From Chloroflexota bacterium (lineage in GTDB: Bacteria > Chloroflexota > Anaerolineae > Anaerolineales > Villigracilaceae), in NCBI GenBank assembly GCA_013388855.1, contig JACAEM010000026.1:1-64000 (forward strand): DNA of 64,000 nt. Direction: 5' to 3'. Under the pieces are notes generated by a model. It made no database searches and was not told the origin of the DNA. It saw nothing but the letters and a program-made list of their open reading frames with translations. Position 1 is the stretch's first letter, and every line of letters begins with the position of its first letter. A program made the position numbers and the translations under genes. This document shows positions 55,811 to 61,925 of this stretch, piece by piece.

Positions 55811-56068
55811 TTAGAAAATCGCATCCATCAGATCCCGTTCCCGCAACATGCGGCGTTTCCAGTTGCCGATGAGTGGAACGACGAAAGGCAGCAACTTGAT
55901 GCTGTAATACGGCGGCAGGATCGGCATGCCGAGCAGGTCGCCAAAACTGATCAACACGAAGAGATGCTCCAGACTGCCGCGTTGCCGCGCCAGGGTGCGC
56001 ACCTGGTCGTGGATGGCCATGCCGTAAAGGATCTCGGTGAAGGAACGGGAGATACGTTTAAGAACCAA
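55811..56068 (-). CDS. Small ArsA-linked protein, copy 3
   Basis: The 85-residue protein is a paralogue of the proteins at 58115 and 58442. The shared core is EILYGMAxHD...[23 protein letters not shown], then KLLPFVVP and a basic [16 protein letters not shown] end. A hydrophobic stretch (about 35-66) lies close to the C terminus and is followed by a positive cluster, as in tail-anchored or hairpin-inserted proteins. It directly follows the second ArsA-like gene's operon across a hairpin. The recurrent link with Get3-like ATPases suggests a client or regulatory subunit; no family is known to me. Confidence 0.75.
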
Positions 56069-56085
56069 TTTTCATCCTTAAGTGA

Positions 56086-56125
56086 ATCGTGAGGCGCGAA
56101 AGCATTGTAACGCACCTCACGATTT
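56086..56125. repeat. Inverted repeat between the ArsA operon and small copy 3
   Basis: AATCGTGAGG (56086-56095) and CCTCACGATT (56116-56125), 20-nt loop, with TTT on the plus side. On the minus strand it lacks a T run, so it may only attenuate, giving less of copy 3. Confidence 0.6.
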
Positions 56126-56137
56126 TTGTCTGATTCT

Positions 56138-57118
56138 TTATGCAAACAAGGCGTCGCCCATCCGTGTCAGAGACTCAATTCCACGGACTTCATTTTCATA
56201 AAGCGGCAACTTGGCACGCACCATGTTATCGAATTTTTCCCAGATCTCGACCATGTAGCGATCCTGCATCGCCACGCGATTTTTGACGAAGTCTGGCGAC
56301 TGAGCATTCACCTGCTTTTGGTCGATCAGCATGTTGACAATCACACCGCCAACTGGGATGCCAAAATCATGGAACCAGCCGATGAAGCGCGTAATGACAG
56401 CGATAGGGAGCGCCTCCGGTAGCGTGACAAAGAAGAAGGATGTCCGGGATGGATCGGTCAGCATTTCGCGGGCTTTTCCCATCCGGTCACGGAACGCGAC
56501 CAGATATTCCATCAACGGGTCCTTTTCTTTTTTCTTGGTGAAGGAAAGCAGTTCACGCAGGGAGCGGGCTTCTTCGCGGCTCTTCAACATCTTGTTGACC
56601 CACAGCGAATAGACTTGAGACATACCCAGCAAACGCCGGGCATTGGCAGTGGGAGCGGTGTCGAAGACGTACACATCGTATTCGCCGCCCAGCATCAGGT
56701 CCACCATGTTCTCGAACATCGCGGATTCTTCGAAAGCCGGATTCATCGTTGCCGACTCTACAAAATCCTCCGCCTTGGTGGAAATGTCAGCGAATTTCAG
56801 GAACCACTGAATCTTTTCACGAATCTCCTGCTTGGAGCGTTCGATTGTGTCCTTGGTATCGATCTCATATGCCCAAAGGTTGGGCACCCCGTTGACCGCG
56901 GTTGGCTGACCGAAAACATTCTGTCCAAGCAACCCGCTCAGGCTATGGACCGGATTGGTGGATGCCAGCATGACGCGTTTTCCCTGCTTCGCCAGCCAGA
57001 TGGCGGTCGCACCTGCCATGGCGGTTTTGCCCACCCCGCCCTTGCCGCCGAAGAAAAGGTAACGAAGAGAATCGTGCTCCTTGATATAAGCCTGCATTGA
57101 AATTTCGATTTCTTTCAT
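56138..57118 (-). CDS. ArsA/Get3-like ATPase, subunit with Asn in switch I
   Basis: The 326-residue protein has the deviant P-loop GGKGGVGKT (24-32) with the intradimer Lys. Switch I reads TNPVHSLSG, so the catalytic Asp of the Get3/ArsA consensus DPAHSLSD is Asn55. Switch II reads FDTAPTANARRLL, keeping DTAPT. It has no arsenite-binding Cys pattern and no TRC40 insert. The partner at 57131 has the opposite pattern: Asp kept in switch I and DTAPT lost. The genes are 13 bp apart, so a heterodimer with one competent catalytic set is likely. The gene belongs with the small proteins at 58115 and 58442. Confidence 0.87.
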   Translation of the reverse strand: MKEIEISMQAYIKEHDSLRYLFFGGKGGVGKTAMAGATAIWLAKQGKRVMLASTNPVHSLSGLLGQNVFGQPTAVNGVPNLWAYEIDTKDTIERSKQEIREKIQWFLKFADISTKAEDFVESATMNPAFEESAMFENMVDLMLGGEYDVYVFDTAPTANARRLLGMSQVYSLWVNKMLKSREEARSLRELLSFTKKKEKDPLMEYLVAFRDRMGKAREMLTDPSRTSFFFVTLPEALPIAVITRFIGWFHDFGIPVGGVIVNMLIDQKQVNAQSPDFVKNRVAMQDRYMVEIWEKFDNMVRAKLPLYENEVRGIESLTRMGDALFA

Positions 57119-57130
57119 GGCTGATTCTCC

Positions 57131-58105
57131 TTATTTCCCATACATGATTTCAGCCAGCTGTCGGATCATATCCAGTCCGGTCACATCACGTTCCAACTCA
57201 GGCACATGTGATGCCACCTGATCGCCGAACATGGTCTTGATCTGTCCGAGATATTTATCCTGCATCTCGATGCGGTTCTTCAAGTACGCCGGGATGTTCT
57301 GCTGGAGCAGTTCGCGCGGCACTACGCGGTTGACTACATAGCCCATGATCGGTACATCGAATTTGGCGAACAAGTCAGCCGCCTTGGCTGTGTCAATCAG
57401 GATCATTTCCTCGGGGATGATGACAAAGAAGAAACCGGTCTTTTCCTTGTCGGTCAGGATTCTGGATGAGGCATTGATGCGGGTACGGATGTACTGGAGC
57501 TCTGTGAGGATCTGATCCTCCTCGGTCTCCTTCTCGCGTTTCAGGCGGGAGACCATTTCCTCGTACTCTCGCATCTCCTCGCGCAGTTTCGTGATCTTGT
57601 TGATCCATTCATCGTACACTTTTGCCATGCTCAGGTAATACAGCGCATGGCCGAGCGGCACGAGGTCGTAGATGTAATAATCGTAATCTCCGCCCACGAC
57701 GATATCCACCACCGCGTCGAAGATGGCACTCTCCTCCATGGCGGGTTCGGCAGAGGCAGCCTGGATGTATTGTTCGATCTCATCCGGCACTGCCTCAAAA
57801 CCATACATATCCAGGATCTTCTTGCGGATCTCGTTTTGATAGGTTTTGATGTGCTGATCGGCATCGATTTCCTGCGCCCACAAATTTTCCATGATCTTCA
57901 CGGGACCCTTGCCGAAAATATCCTTTTGGAAGATATCGGACAAACTTGCCTGCGGGTCCACGGAGAAGACCAGCACTTTCTTGCCCTGTTGGGCAAGCCA
58001 ATAGGCGGTGGCGGCGGAAAATGTCGTCTTCCCCAGCCCTCCCTTGCCGCCGAACATGATGTAACGTCGTTCCGGGTGCTCTTCAAAGATCTTTTTCAGT
58101 GACAT
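57131..58105 (-). CDS. ArsA/Get3-like ATPase, subunit with altered switch II
   Basis: The 324-residue protein has P-loop GGKGGLGKT (19-27). Switch I is VDPQASLSD, with the catalytic Asp50 kept but His replaced by Ala53. Switch II is YDLVPLGHALYYL, in which DTAPT has become DLVPL. A helical region with KLREEMREYEEMVSRLKREKE (about 170-195) could bind hydrophobic clients. It starts 9 bp after the small protein gene at 58115 and precedes its partner by 13 bp. These ATPases move hydrophobic tails or metal oxyanions; no arsenic gene is present, so the first is more likely here. Confidence 0.87.
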   Translation of the reverse strand: MSLKKIFEEHPERRYIMFGGKGGLGKTTFSAATAYWLAQQGKKVLVFSVDPQASLSDIFQKDIFGKGPVKIMENLWAQEIDADQHIKTYQNEIRKKILDMYGFEAVPDEIEQYIQAASAEPAMEESAIFDAVVDIVVGGDYDYYIYDLVPLGHALYYLSMAKVYDEWINKITKLREEMREYEEMVSRLKREKETEEDQILTELQYIRTRINASSRILTDKEKTGFFFVIIPEEMILIDTAKAADLFAKFDVPIMGYVVNRVVPRELLQQNIPAYLKNRIEMQDKYLGQIKTMFGDQVASHVPELERDVTGLDMIRQLAEIMYGK

Positions 58106-58114
58106 CGTGGTCTC

Positions 58115-58396
58115 CTAGAACATCGCGTCAGAAACATCTTTCTCGCGCAATAGGCGCCGCTTCCAGGTGGAAATCTGCGGCACCACGTAGGGAAGCAGGC
58201 GCAGGCTGTAATACGGCGGCAGGATCGGGATGCCAATCATGTCTCCCATCGTGATCAGGATGAACAGATGCTCCATGCTGGCGCGCGTCCGCAGGGCATA
58301 CCGGCTCATATCATGAGAAGCCATGCCGTAAAGCACTTCCTTCATATTCTGCCAAAAGCTTTTCTTCTCGGGTTTCTTGGGTTCTTCCTGGGTCAT
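58115..58396 (-). CDS. Small ArsA-linked protein, copy 2
   Basis: The 93-residue protein has a charged start (MTQEEPKKPEKKSFWQNMKE), EVLYGMASHDMSRYALRTRASMEHLF, and a hydrophobic stretch at about 43-74 with [18 protein letters not shown], then the basic WKRRLLREKD end. It is more like copy 3 (55811) than copy 1. It lies 9 bp before the ArsA-like gene at 57131, so the two are co-translated. The function is unknown; see copy 3. Confidence 0.75.
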   Translation of the reverse strand: MTQEEPKKPEKKSFWQNMKEVLYGMASHDMSRYALRTRASMEHLFILITMGDMIGIPILPPYYSLRLLPYVVPQISTWKRRLLREKDVSDAMF

Positions 58397-58441
58397 GTTG
58401 AGGCTCCTTTCAATTTCCTTCTTAGTTAGTATGCTGGAGGG

Positions 58442-58735
58442 TTAGAGTCCTTCCAGATGATAGTCATGTTCATCGCTGAATTCGCGTTCTCGCAGAACAC
58501 GGCGTTTCCAGGTTGCTATATGGGGTATCACATAAGGTAATAAACGAAGACTGTAATAAGGCGGCAGGACAGGCACACCGATCATATCCCCCACCGTTCC
58601 AAGCATGAACAGACTTTCAAGGCTGGCACGCATTTCGAGCGCGTGCTCGGCAAATTCCATTCCGAACAAGCCGTATAAGAATTCCCGTGCTGCCTGCCAA
58701 AACGTTTTCTTTTCTGGTTGACTCGGTGCATTCAT
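58442..58735 (-). CDS. Small ArsA-linked protein, copy 1
   Basis: The start is ATG 58735 (MNAPSQPEKKTFWQAAREF). The 97-residue protein shares FLYGLFGMEFAEHALEMRASLESLF and VPVLPPYYSLRLLPYVIP...WKRRVLRERE with the other two copies and has a slightly longer acidic C-terminal tail. It heads the cassette. Its start is 38 bp from that of the divergent gene at 58774, so the two share a control region. Confidence 0.75.
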   Translation of the reverse strand: MNAPSQPEKKTFWQAAREFLYGLFGMEFAEHALEMRASLESLFMLGTVGDMIGVPVLPPYYSLRLLPYVIPHIATWKRRVLREREFSDEHDYHLEGL

Positions 58736-58773
58736 ATTATACTCATGCCTATTCGTTGAATTCGAGGTGCTCC

Positions 58774-59430
58774 ATGAATGTGAATGCGCAAACAATAGTC
58801 ATTGTCGCCGTAACCATTTTCATGGGTTGGTTTGCCATCGGCATGATCTACAATCTGCGTCGTGGCGACAGGATTCTGAAATGGATGCAGGATGGTCTGC
58901 CGCTCATCGGTCAACGCACCACGTTTCGCTGGCTGGGCACTTCTGTGGCGGAGATGGGCATTGCAAAAGCCAGGCGTCCGTTCCAGCGCATGGATGTCCT
59001 GCTGGTACTCAAGCCGCGCGATGTTTTCTGGATGACGATCATCGCCCTCTTTCAGGGACGCGACGATGTCGTGATCTTTCGCGCCGCCCTCAGCACGGCT
59101 CCTCTTCTGGACCTCGAGCTGGCTGACCCAAAAACCTGGAGCGGGCGCGAGGCCCTGAGCAAGGCGACCAAACGCGGCTGGGAGGGAACCGATTATCACG
59201 GCCTGCGGCTGATGGCACCCAAGGGATTGCTCAACCTGGCGCAGCAAACACTCGACCAGCTTGCTTCTCCCATGCAGTCACTTGCGTCACAGTATGTCCG
59301 TCTCAGTCTGCGCAAGTCTGCACCGAATTTGGAAATCCATCTGCCGTTTCCCAACCCGCAGGAAACTGACGCAAGAACCTACTTCCAGTCCTTGAGCAAT
59401 TTCGGACGCGCCATCGGCGAGAGAAATTGA
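58774..59430 (+). CDS. Membrane-anchored protein divergent from the ArsA cassette
   Basis: The start is ATG 58774 (CGAGGTG upstream). The 218-residue protein has one N-terminal membrane span (about 6-26, IVIVAVTIFMGWFAIGMIY) and a cytoplasmic alpha/beta region with DRILKWMQDGLPLIGQRTTF and RMDVLLVLKPRDVFWM. The rest is unknown. The shared 38-bp control region with the small protein gene links it to the ArsA cassette. It could be the membrane receptor of that system; this is inference from position only. A strong terminator follows. Confidence 0.7.
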   Translation: MNVNAQTIVIVAVTIFMGWFAIGMIYNLRRGDRILKWMQDGLPLIGQRTTFRWLGTSVAEMGIAKARRPFQRMDVLLVLKPRDVFWMTIIALFQGRDDVVIFRAALSTAPLLDLELADPKTWSGREALSKATKRGWEGTDYHGLRLMAPKGLLNLAQQTLDQLASPMQSLASQYVRLSLRKSAPNLEIHLPFPNPQETDARTYFQSLSNFGRAIGERN

Positions 59431-59486: not shown

Positions 59487-61376
59487 CTAATCATCCGCTG
59501 CGGCAGGAGCCCGCTTGGCTTGAGCGCCCTTGCCATAGCGCTGATACGCCTTGTAACCGTCCCAACCGATGATGAGAGCGGTCACAAATAACAGAACGGC
59601 AATGATAATCATTGCCCATGCACCCGCCGCGGCTGAACCACCACGCGGTACGATCGTTACGTATAGATTACGTGCCGTTACCAGCGTGGCAGCCAGTGTG
59701 GTAATGTACATGAACAGGGTCGGCCATAGAGCGAACGAAGGATTCTTCTTCTGTTCCCTCAACCAGACCGTCACAATGAGCAGGCTGAGCGCTGCCATCA
59801 GCTGATTGGCGGCACCGAACAACTGCCACAAATACACCCAGGTTCCGGTCAACACCAGCAGGATGGTCAGGAACATCGAAACGACGGTCGAGACGTGCAT
59901 ATTCTTCAACGCCGGGAAGACATCACCAGCCCACTCGGAGAGAGTCACGCGCATCACGCGGAAGACCAGTTGTGTCACCGTCAGCACGATGACCATGAAG
60001 GCGCCAAACCCGAGAGCTGTCCCGAACACGAGAAATTTGTCGCCGAACAGGACGCTGAGCAGGTTGCCAACCCCTGCCGCAAAGCGACCGGCTCCACCGC
60101 CTGTGCCTACAATGGAAACAGCCACAAGCGCCAGCAGGGCGAGCGTGTTCTCGGTGAACATCGCGCCGCCGCCAACAGGCAATCCGTCGGTTTCATATTC
60201 CAACTGGCGGGCGGTGCCGATCGATCCGATCAGCGCGTGCCATCCGGAAATGGAACCGCAGGCGATGGTGACGAAGAGCATCGGCCAGAGCGGCTGCCAG
60301 GCTTTGGTCGCTTCATAGGCAAAGCCCCAGGTCTTGAGCGGCTCGAGCGCGAACGCGCCGATTGCGGGTTTGATGAACGGCGCCAGGACCGCGCCGAGGG
60401 CGCTGAGACCGATGGTCAACAAGGTAACCCAGAAACCGATGTAGTTCACAGGTTGGGCGAAACGCCAGATCGGCAGCGTTGCCGCCAGATAGGAAAAGAC
60501 CAGCAGGAACAATGCCCAGAAGAGATACGATGGCATCGTCTTGATCTCTCCGGTGTCAGCGTTGTAAACCGCTGTAGAGGGGCGTTTCCCATCTGCGCCG
60601 GGAGCAGGGATGCGCGGGTCGGCATTGGTCGGGTCTGTCACGACCATGACCGCCTGATCGCCGCTGATCTTGTTGATCGCATTATTGAATGCAATAACAG
60701 CGGAACTGACTGGTCCCTGTGTGAGGTCCAGTTTGCCTTCCGCATTGACGGCACGGAAGGGGCCAAGCATCATCGCCGCCAGTGTTACAACGACCACGAT
60801 GGCGGTTACCAGGATCAGGTCCATTTTCCATTTATAGAGCATCTGACCTGCCAAAAAACCCATCACACCCAGCATGATGATACCCAGGGGTACATCAGCA
60901 CGGGCGGCAAGCAGGGCAGACATAATGCCCATGAAGGCTCCAGCCACCAGCATCAAATAGAAGAAAATGAACGTAAACAGGATCGGGCGGGTGCGCGGCG
61001 AAATCAACTTATGGCTGACAGCGCTCAGGCTGTTTCCATCATTTCGAACCGCGACCATGATCGCGCTGTAATCGCTCACCCAGCCGATGAACGAAACGCC
61101 GATCAATAACCAGGCCAGTGCGGGAGCCCAGCCCCAGATATTCGCCGCTGTAATAGGACCCACGATTGGCCCCGCCGCGGCAATGGACTTGAAGTGATAC
61201 CCATACAGCACATTGCGGCTGGTGGGCATGAAGTCCACGCCATCCATATACATCTTCGCAGGTGTGGCTTTTTTGGCGTCTGACTGGATGACGTTCTTGT
61301 CGATCTGCTTGGCGTAGAAATTGTATGCCAGGTAGATGACAACAACGGCAAGAACAACGATCCAAAGAGTATTCAT
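59487..61376 (-). CDS. cstA: Carbon starvation protein CstA (peptide/pyruvate transporter family)
   Basis: The start is ATG 61376 with GGAGG 8 nt upstream; the longer frame begins at the odd MRTEV. The 629-residue protein has many membrane spans. The family blocks are YAKQIDKNVI, DGVDFMPTSRNVLYGYHFKSIAAAGPIVGP, GYHF and WYGLI-like ends, ISGWHALIGSIGTARQLEYE, and GAGRFAAGVGNLLSVL. CstA-type proteins import peptides or pyruvate under carbon limitation. It follows the thioredoxin-like gene by 153 bp. Both may depend on the promoter and leader at 61926-62178. Confidence 0.93.
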   Translation of the reverse strand: MNTLWIVVLAVVVIYLAYNFYAKQIDKNVIQSDAKKATPAKMYMDGVDFMPTSRNVLYGYHFKSIAAAGPIVGPITAANIWGWAPALAWLLIGVSFIGWVSDYSAIMVAVRNDGNSLSAVSHKLISPRTRPILFTFIFFYLMLVAGAFMGIMSALLAARADVPLGIIMLGVMGFLAGQMLYKWKMDLILVTAIVVVVTLAAMMLGPFRAVNAEGKLDLTQGPVSSAVIAFNNAINKISGDQAVMVVTDPTNADPRIPAPGADGKRPSTAVYNADTGEIKTMPSYLFWALFLLVFSYLAATLPIWRFAQPVNYIGFWVTLLTIGLSALGAVLAPFIKPAIGAFALEPLKTWGFAYEATKAWQPLWPMLFVTIACGSISGWHALIGSIGTARQLEYETDGLPVGGGAMFTENTLALLALVAVSIVGTGGGAGRFAAGVGNLLSVLFGDKFLVFGTALGFGAFMVIVLTVTQLVFRVMRVTLSEWAGDVFPALKNMHVSTVVSMFLTILLVLTGTWVYLWQLFGAANQLMAALSLLIVTVWLREQKKNPSFALWPTLFMYITTLAATLVTARNLYVTIVPRGGSAAAGAWAMIIIAVLLFVTALIIGWDGYKAYQRYGKGAQAKRAPAAADD

Positions 61377-61529
61377 ATCATAGACCTCCGTTCGCATAGT
61401 GCGTTAGACGAAATTGACAGATCTTCGAACGTACGGGCCAATAGGACGATTTCTCCTCTTCTCATCCCTGGCTTGCAAAAGAACTGGTTTCCTTCCATCT
61501 ACCTCCTCTCAGCGAGCCTGCTCCTGCAT

Positions 61530-61925
61530 TTATGCCTCCATGGGTCGACTCGCCAGTTGGCGGGCGATCTCTTCGCCCGCGGACGACAGCGTTTGGACTC
61601 CTATGAATCGGGCTTTACCACTATTCACAATAACCGCCGGGTAGCGGTGGACATTGTATTTCAATGATTTATAGAAACCTTCCATTGATGCTGCATCGAC
61701 CACTTTCAGAACGACGCGGTCGCAATGCACACGGAATATCTCCCTGACCCAGTCAGATACCACCTGATATTCCTGCATCAGATCATCAGGCAGACTGCCT
61801 CCCATTTGCTCCTGATGAATTCGATTGGTTGCTCCCATCTCCCGCCAGGCTACTTCGCAATGGGTGCAGTGATAATAGGCGGTGGGCGCATAGGCAATAA
61901 TTTCCACCATTAAAGGTTCATTCAT
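61530..61925 (-). CDS. Thioredoxin-fold-like protein with CxxC
   Basis: The 131-residue protein starts MNEPLMVEIIAYAPTAYYHC, with CTHC (Cys20 and Cys23) in the position of a thioredoxin-fold active site. VVLKVVDAASMEGFYKSLKYNVHRYPAVIVNSGKARF looks like the beta-alpha-beta core with the cis-Pro loop (RYPAVIV). It is upstream of cstA in the same direction. A redox role linked to the transporter is possible. GGAGCAAGAGG precedes the ATG. Confidence 0.7.
   Translation of the reverse strand: MNEPLMVEIIAYAPTAYYHCTHCEVAWREMGATNRIHQEQMGGSLPDDLMQEYQVVSDWVREIFRVHCDRVVLKVVDAASMEGFYKSLKYNVHRYPAVIVNSGKARFIGVQTLSSAGEEIARQLASRPMEA

Follow-up and report, generated by a model that had tools for sequence, protein, structure and literature searches.

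What might a pair of ArsA/Get3-family ATPases do in a bacterium when one of them carries Asn in place of the catalytic Asp, the other retains the Asp, and a transporter of the CstA family is encoded just upstream? The question is raised by a locus of a Chloroflexota bacterium of the family Villigracilaceae on contig JACAEM010000026.1 (assembly GCA_013388855.1, positions 1 to 64,000; these 64,000 nucleotides are the stretch that was analysed and are called the window here). The locus encodes the two ATPases, A and B, together with three small hydrophobic proteins, S1-S3. A first-pass annotation of the window suggested that A and B could be a Get3-like obligate heterodimer with one complete active site, and that the small proteins may be its tail-anchored clients or receptors. 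It overlooked the CstA gene, and this context changes the reading of the ATPase pair. On balance, we favor the view that the locus encodes a CstA-type transport system in which an obligate asymmetric A/B ATPase heterodimer is coupled to the permease through CstX-like small proteins. The association of CstA, CstX and ArsA homologues is already known; what is added here is the fixed catalytic asymmetry of the ATPases, the reach of the module across phyla and the statistics of its co-occurrence with CstA.

Two ATPases with unequal switches

Two sets of genomes were compared. The class sample comprises 199 genomes of the class of the window, Anaerolineae, with 41 loci examined in full. The cross-phylum scan, in which a small-protein alignment was run against about 85,000 species genomes, gave 432 relatives, and the best 80 loci were examined; the scan set partly overlaps the class set, and its motif counts cover readable sequences only. 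The five genes and the active-site residues described by the first-pass annotation are confirmed, both ATPases matching the Pfam ArsA_ATPase family (PF02374) with the motifs as they had been read. All five genes are on the minus strand and are transcribed in the order S1, S2, ATPase B, ATPase A, S3:

58442-58735, minus strand: small protein S1, 97 amino acids (117 from a TTG start that lies 60 bases upstream)
58115-58396, minus strand: small protein S2, 93 amino acids, the most conserved of the small subunits
57131-58105, minus strand: ATPase B, 324 amino acids, ArsA/Get3 family, catalytic Asp kept (PF02374, E 2.6e-75)
57956-57958, minus strand: Asp50 of B, the catalytic switch-I Asp in SVDPQAS (41/41 in the class, 78/78 in the scan)
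57653-57667, minus strand: switch II of B, DLVPL, residues 147-151 (41/41 in the class, 75/75 in the scan)
56138-57118, minus strand: ATPase A, 326 amino acids, ArsA/Get3 family, Asn in place of the catalytic Asp (PF02374, E 3.9e-74)
56954-56956, minus strand: Asn55 of A in STNPVHS, at the position of the Get3 catalytic Asp, D57 of the yeast protein (41/41 in the class, 74/74 in the scan)
56648-56662, minus strand: switch II of A, DTAPT, residues 153-157 (41/41 in the class, 71/71 in the scan)
55811-56068, minus strand: small protein S3, 85 amino acids, a third copy whose presence and position vary among loci
59487-61397, minus strand: CstA-family transporter, 636 amino acids (PF02554, 348 bits)

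Each ATPase consists of a single ArsA domain. The P-loop, switch I and switch II read GGKGGVGKT, STNPVHS and DTAPTAN in A and GGKGGLGKT, SVDPQAS and DLVPLGH in B; the canonical switch II, DTAPTGH, is found in neither. Sequence alignment places Asn55 of A opposite the Asp of the archaeal Get3 motif STDPAHS, and the B protein of the window retains the switch-I Asp, the Walker B Asp and both P-loop lysines. Of the features of the Get3/TRC40 family, the fold and the deviant P-loop are present in A and B, and the switch-I Asp only in B. The closest solved structures of both proteins by sequence are archaeal Get3 proteins and not E. coli ArsA. The AlphaFold model of A (predicted local distance difference test score, pLDDT, 82) has archaeal Get3 (3ug6) as its best fold match in the Protein Data Bank (PDB), with the structure of yeast Get3 D57N (9ns5) among the other matches.

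Fixation and origin of the asymmetry

Orthologues of B were found in 63 of the 199 class genomes, with 69-100% identity where full length, and A was likewise found in 63; the four cases where A and B do not match are contig ends or collapsed assembly. In all 41 fully examined class loci the order S-B-A on one strand is constant and both switch motifs are fixed, the only changes being Ser/Thr, Ala/Thr and Val/Ile swaps beside the key residues. The scan extends this to complete motifs, with STNPVHS and DTAPTAN in every A (74/74 and 71/71) and SVDPQAS and DLVPLGH in every B (78/78 and 75/75). The motifs are therefore no product of chance, and the Asn and DLVPL states proved fixed and always paired. 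According to their record titles, the best 80 loci span Chloroflexota, Acidobacteriota, Pseudomonadota, Bacteroidota, Gemmatimonadota, Thermodesulfobacteriota and Actinomycetota, with median identities across phyla of 73% and 77% for the two ATPase subunits. An A or a B standing alone with complete motifs, the outcome that the first-pass annotation held to speak against its pair, was looked for and none was found among the loci examined; apparent singletons are genomes in which the locus is cut by a contig end (G075, G090, G102, G012, G131, G157, G034) or the assembly is collapsed. In one fragmented assembly (G188, contig C176, L202) B runs into A and the small genes are merged, a chimera that is probably due to the collapse of paralogues during assembly.

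Four Chloroflexota genomes from the wider phylum carry a divergent subtype (L234-L237), whose ATPases are 40-48% identical to A and B and whose gene order, CstA-S-B-A, is that of the main form. Its A2 protein has SLNPVHS and DTAAV, and its B2 protein STDPQAS and DMPPF. Since Asn is retained in A2 and Asp in B2, the Asn/Asp split is older and more stable than the rest of the asymmetry, and switch II varies by subtype. In maximum-likelihood trees A and A2 form one clade and B and B2 another, each fully supported, which means that a single duplication preceded the split of the subtypes and that the asymmetry dates from that duplication. The placement of single-ATPase relatives in the tree is unsure because of long branches.

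In Get3 structures the switch-I Asp acts on the ATP of its own subunit. In SIMIBI dimers, the P-loop Lys of one subunit is inserted into the nucleotide site of its partner (PMC9599734). With the Asp acting in cis and the first P-loop Lys reaching across, a competent B and a hydrolysis-dead A are likelier than one site assembled from both. The heterodimer proposed by the first-pass annotation therefore survives in part: the fixed and paired Asn and DLVPL states argue for an obligate heterodimer, but two unequal sites are likelier in it than one complete site, and a single composite site was rejected as the principal model, since the switch-I Asp should act within the subunit that carries it. 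In yeast Get3, the D57N substitution serves as a laboratory trap that leaves ATP bound and not hydrolysed (PMC12506534), and A, whose Asn is equal to that of the trap, is by this analogy expected to bind ATP and hold it. The first P-loop Lys has been lost in 3 of 78 B proteins of the scan and in 0 of 74 A proteins, and this confinement to B is the direction expected if the Lys of B serves the site of A, which is predicted not to turn over. The three B proteins, all proteobacterial, have GGGGGVGKT at this position (L130:6286-6699, L137:6280-7251 and L172:6283-7254).

Association with the CstA transporter

Clustering of the neighbours of the module revealed a family of 629-amino-acid proteins, encoded about 3.3 kilobases (kb) upstream in 89 loci, which is CstA (PF02554). 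Where scan loci offer 5.5 kb or more of sequence upstream of B, CstA is within reach in 49 of 58, and it is present in 20 of 20 module-bearing genomes of other phyla. In the class sample, 60 genomes have both B and CstA, 3 have B only, 2 have CstA only and 134 have neither (Fisher p 1.5e-44); the Pfam CstA model recovers the same 62 genomes, and at that threshold there is no other CstA in the class sample. Pairwise evolutionary distances are correlated as well, with r of 0.88 for A and B, 0.84 for B and CstA and 0.73 for B and S2; among A, B, S2, CstA and a 219-amino-acid protein encoded between CstA and the small genes, all the correlations lie at 0.70-0.88, each with p 0.001 in 999 permutations. 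Judged by sequence divergence, they are as would be expected for a unit inherited or transferred together. That CstA is a chance neighbour was rejected on the strength of the co-occurrence and of the distance correlation.

The CstA proteins of the module contain a polar insert of about 60-90 residues. The CstAs that occur with only one ATPase are without it, and in some of the diverged CstAs of the module it is shorter or missing.

Operons of this general kind have been described before. Castillo and Saier (2010) found CstA together with an ArsA homologue in 26 operons, of which 24 also had a small protein, CstX; in their proposal, ArsA supplies CstA with energy and CstX serves as the linker (PMC2963123). 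They noted tandem ATPase pairs in Pyrobaculum arsenaticum and Symbiobacterium thermophilum and assumed homodimers (PMC2963123). The module appears to fit this operon type, as it has the permease and ATPases close to the single-domain ArsA homologue of about 330 amino acids that is encoded there in one operon with CstA and a CstX of about 90 amino acids; no complementary split of catalytic residues between the paired ATPases was described in these operons. The literature searched contained no experimental test of the 2010 proposal, and full-text searching turned up the name CstX alongside CstA in no paper but theirs.

The small proteins

S1-S3 are paralogous, as had been claimed, with 46-58% identity to S3. 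No Pfam family matches them above chance, and no homology to the YbdD family was detected. By sequence, they appear to be distant relatives of the cory-CC-star proteins (NCBIfam NF041419), on which the literature search returned nothing: they score 31-34 bits (S1, 31 bits) against a curated cut-off of 80, and 44 of 44 aligned relatives match the model at E<=0.01. The C-terminal Cys-Cys of the Cytobacillus cory-CC-star protein is found in 0 of 199 small proteins of the module. When S1-S3 are compared with CstX, a protein of about 90 amino acids with a single transmembrane segment, their size, their place and the cory-CC-star similarity match and their hydrophobic stretch is borderline; they are probably the CstX proteins of Castillo and Saier.

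The hydrophobic stretch, which the first-pass annotation had put near the C terminus, actually lies in the middle of the protein, a median of 31 residues from the C terminus, and is broken by conserved Gly-Asp and Pro residues. It makes no clean tail anchor. A hydropathy of 1.6 is reached in only about half of the 199 copies. AlphaFold predicts a two-helix hairpin for S2 (helices 13-54 and 61-92) with low confidence (pLDDT 67).

What the ATPases may do for CstA

We propose the following scheme. The CstA permease would work with two or three small, membrane-associated CstX-like subunits, S1-S3. B would be the working subunit, which hydrolyses ATP by means of its water-activating Asp, and A a naturally hydrolysis-dead partner that binds and holds ATP as a nucleotide clamp and whose first P-loop Lys would reach into the site of B. 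Each cycle would use one ATP turnover at B to open and close the dimer, and this motion, transmitted through the small proteins, might power, gate or unlock the transport of the CstA substrate, which by analogy may be pyruvate or a peptide. The strongest version of this scheme, a primary ATP-driven CstA with one working and one ATP-locked Get3-fold ATPase and small linkers, is an attractive possibility that we hold only tentatively.

Several points weigh against the scheme. E. coli CstA is driven by the proton gradient and has no ATPase, so ATP need not drive transport (PMC7730263); it is for this reason that, as far as sequence comparison can tell, gating and assembly of the transporter are serious rivals to driving it. 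Switch II of B departs from the canonical DTAPT, which makes the competence of B uncertain, and the structure of the small proteins is poorly predicted. Part of the distance correlation is owed to common ancestry or to transfer as a unit, and many loci come from metagenome assemblies, in which some phylum labels may be wrong.

The first alternative is targeting or assembly of the Get3 kind, where A/B would shield the small proteins, or a stretch of CstA, and deliver them to the membrane, ATP being spent on building the transporter. The archaeal Get3 proteins are the nearest solved structures both in sequence and in predicted fold, which suits this alternative, and so does the hydrophobic nature of the small proteins, whose genes come immediately before those of the ATPases. 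However, the CXXC zinc motif is present in 0 of 115 A and 0 of 119 B sequences, and the region of the hydrophobic Get3/TRC40 insert has a grand average of hydropathy of -1.02 in B, where it is charged, and 0.19 in A, where it is weak, as against 0.57 in two archaeal Get3s. E. coli CstA, moreover, functions without such an ATPase (PMC7730263). The missing CXXC, the lack of a hydrophobic insert in B and the broken hydrophobic stretch of the small proteins likewise leave the client or receptor role given to S1-S3 by the first-pass annotation unsupported; CstX-type subunits fit better, and S1-S3 are more likely to be subunits of a transporter than tail-anchored clients. We consider assembly an unlikely main role of the ATPases.

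A second alternative, to which we give somewhat less credence, is an energy sensor: the ATP state of the heterodimer would set a switch on CstA, inhibiting or freeing it by way of the small proteins as a regulator in starvation, and hydrolysis would serve only to reset the switch. One locked and one slow nucleotide site would suit sensing, and E. coli CstA is linked to starvation and already driven by protons (PMC5847655, PMC7730263). The extreme conservation of the two ATPases and their joint loss with CstA suggest an integral part of the transporter more than a dispensable regulator, although they are compatible with a sensor too.

It is improbable that A and B act separately as two homodimers with distinct roles. 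The heterodimer is a proposal made from sequence alone, which leaves room for such an arrangement, but A and B co-occur completely and in a fixed order, their divergence is tightly correlated, the Asn/Asp split survives deep divergence and the cross-acting Lys has been lost asymmetrically. Finally, an arsenite efflux pump driven by the pair, which the Pfam name might suggest, is practically out of the question and was rejected on model scores and gene context: the ATPases reach 127 and 114 bits with the curated arsenical-pump models against the 650 demanded, they are tied to CstA, no ars gene is seen near them, in agreement with the first-pass annotation, and the cst operons surveyed by Castillo and Saier contain none (PMC2963123).

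Comparison with related systems

The simplest relative of the module is found on annotated plasmids of Cytobacillus, Paracoccus and Pseudochrobactrum (L188-L190), where a cory-CC-star gene is flanked by cstA and by one arsA-family gene. The same three kinds of protein occur in order, and the small protein is distantly related to S1-S3. In contrast to the module, the trio has a single ATPase with complete STDPAH and DTAPTGH motifs and a CstA without the insert, and its small protein in Cytobacillus ends in Cys-Cys. A plasmid search with B returned only Cytobacillus, pointing to this single-ATPase form, and one with S2 returned no matches. The form with two ATPases seems to derive from the simpler trio and to have become asymmetric, a direction of change that goes beyond what the tree can prove.

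Get3/TRC40 provides the closest solved fold and sequence (3ug6, 3zq6), the deviant P-loop and, in D57N, the counterpart of the Asn of A. Get3 itself is a homodimer with two equal sites, a CXXC zinc site, a hydrophobic insert for tail anchors and the Get1/2 receptor; by the features tested (no CXXC, no insert in B, changed switches) the module is not part of the Get3 pathway. The mycobacterial BagA/BagB pair (Rv3679/Rv3680, PDB 6bs3), two adjacent ArsA/Get3-like ATPases solved together, offers a precedent for a heterodimer. Its similarity to A and B is only distant (E about 1e-5 to 1e-7), the scores of 39-52 bits with the curated BagA and BagB models fall short of the 400 and 521 required, and the gene context of BagA/BagB differs from that of the module. 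The arsenical pump ArsA consists of two fused halves encoded in an ars operon, unlike the single-domain ATPases found here beside CstA. For the small proteins the best functional analogy is that of E. coli, where CstA needs the small partner YbdD for pyruvate uptake (PMC5847655); that system has no ATPase and is proton-driven (PMC7730263).

Significance

If the scheme is true, nature has fixed the laboratory Asp-to-Asn trap of Get3, for the very long term, in one half of a dimer, and the module would make it possible to test directly why two sites are needed in ArsA/Get3 dimers and whether ATPases of the ArsA type can power unrelated permeases. The CstA family, seen as proton-driven, would gain an ATP-coupled branch, and a function would be suggested for a family of small proteins named in databases only by its ending. 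An ATP-driven CstA, if true, would be the counterpart of ArsA-ArsB with a single engine, preserved as a unit in at least seven phyla.

Neighbouring genes and distribution

Two further genes of the window lie close to the module:

58771-59430, plus strand: 219-amino-acid protein on the divergent strand, with one N-terminal transmembrane stretch
61530-61925, minus strand: 131-amino-acid protein upstream of CstA, weakly thioredoxin-like (PF13192, E 0.011, below the cut-off)

In the scan, the genes most commonly run CstA, 219-amino-acid protein (encoded on the opposite strand), S, S, B, A; frequently a thioredoxin-like protein precedes CstA and a third S follows A. Neighbour clusters on the strand opposite the ATPases are shadow frames. 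The 219-amino-acid protein has a hydropathy of 2.37 in an N-terminal 19-residue window, and family-model searches gave no match for it. Of 121 loci examined in overlapping sets, 71 have a homologue, in most cases encoded on the other strand between CstA and the small genes. The protein is a possible counterpart of archaeal CstY.

The distribution of the module within the family of the window is patchy: one genus-mate (G307) has it and another (G130) is without it, and 7 of the 10 family members in the class sample have neither the module nor CstA. The module was found in only 2 of 250 genomes of the order of one betaproteobacterial host. The thioredoxin-like family to which the 131-amino-acid protein belongs is encoded near CstA in 42 loci, and the same order is seen in many loci of the scan.

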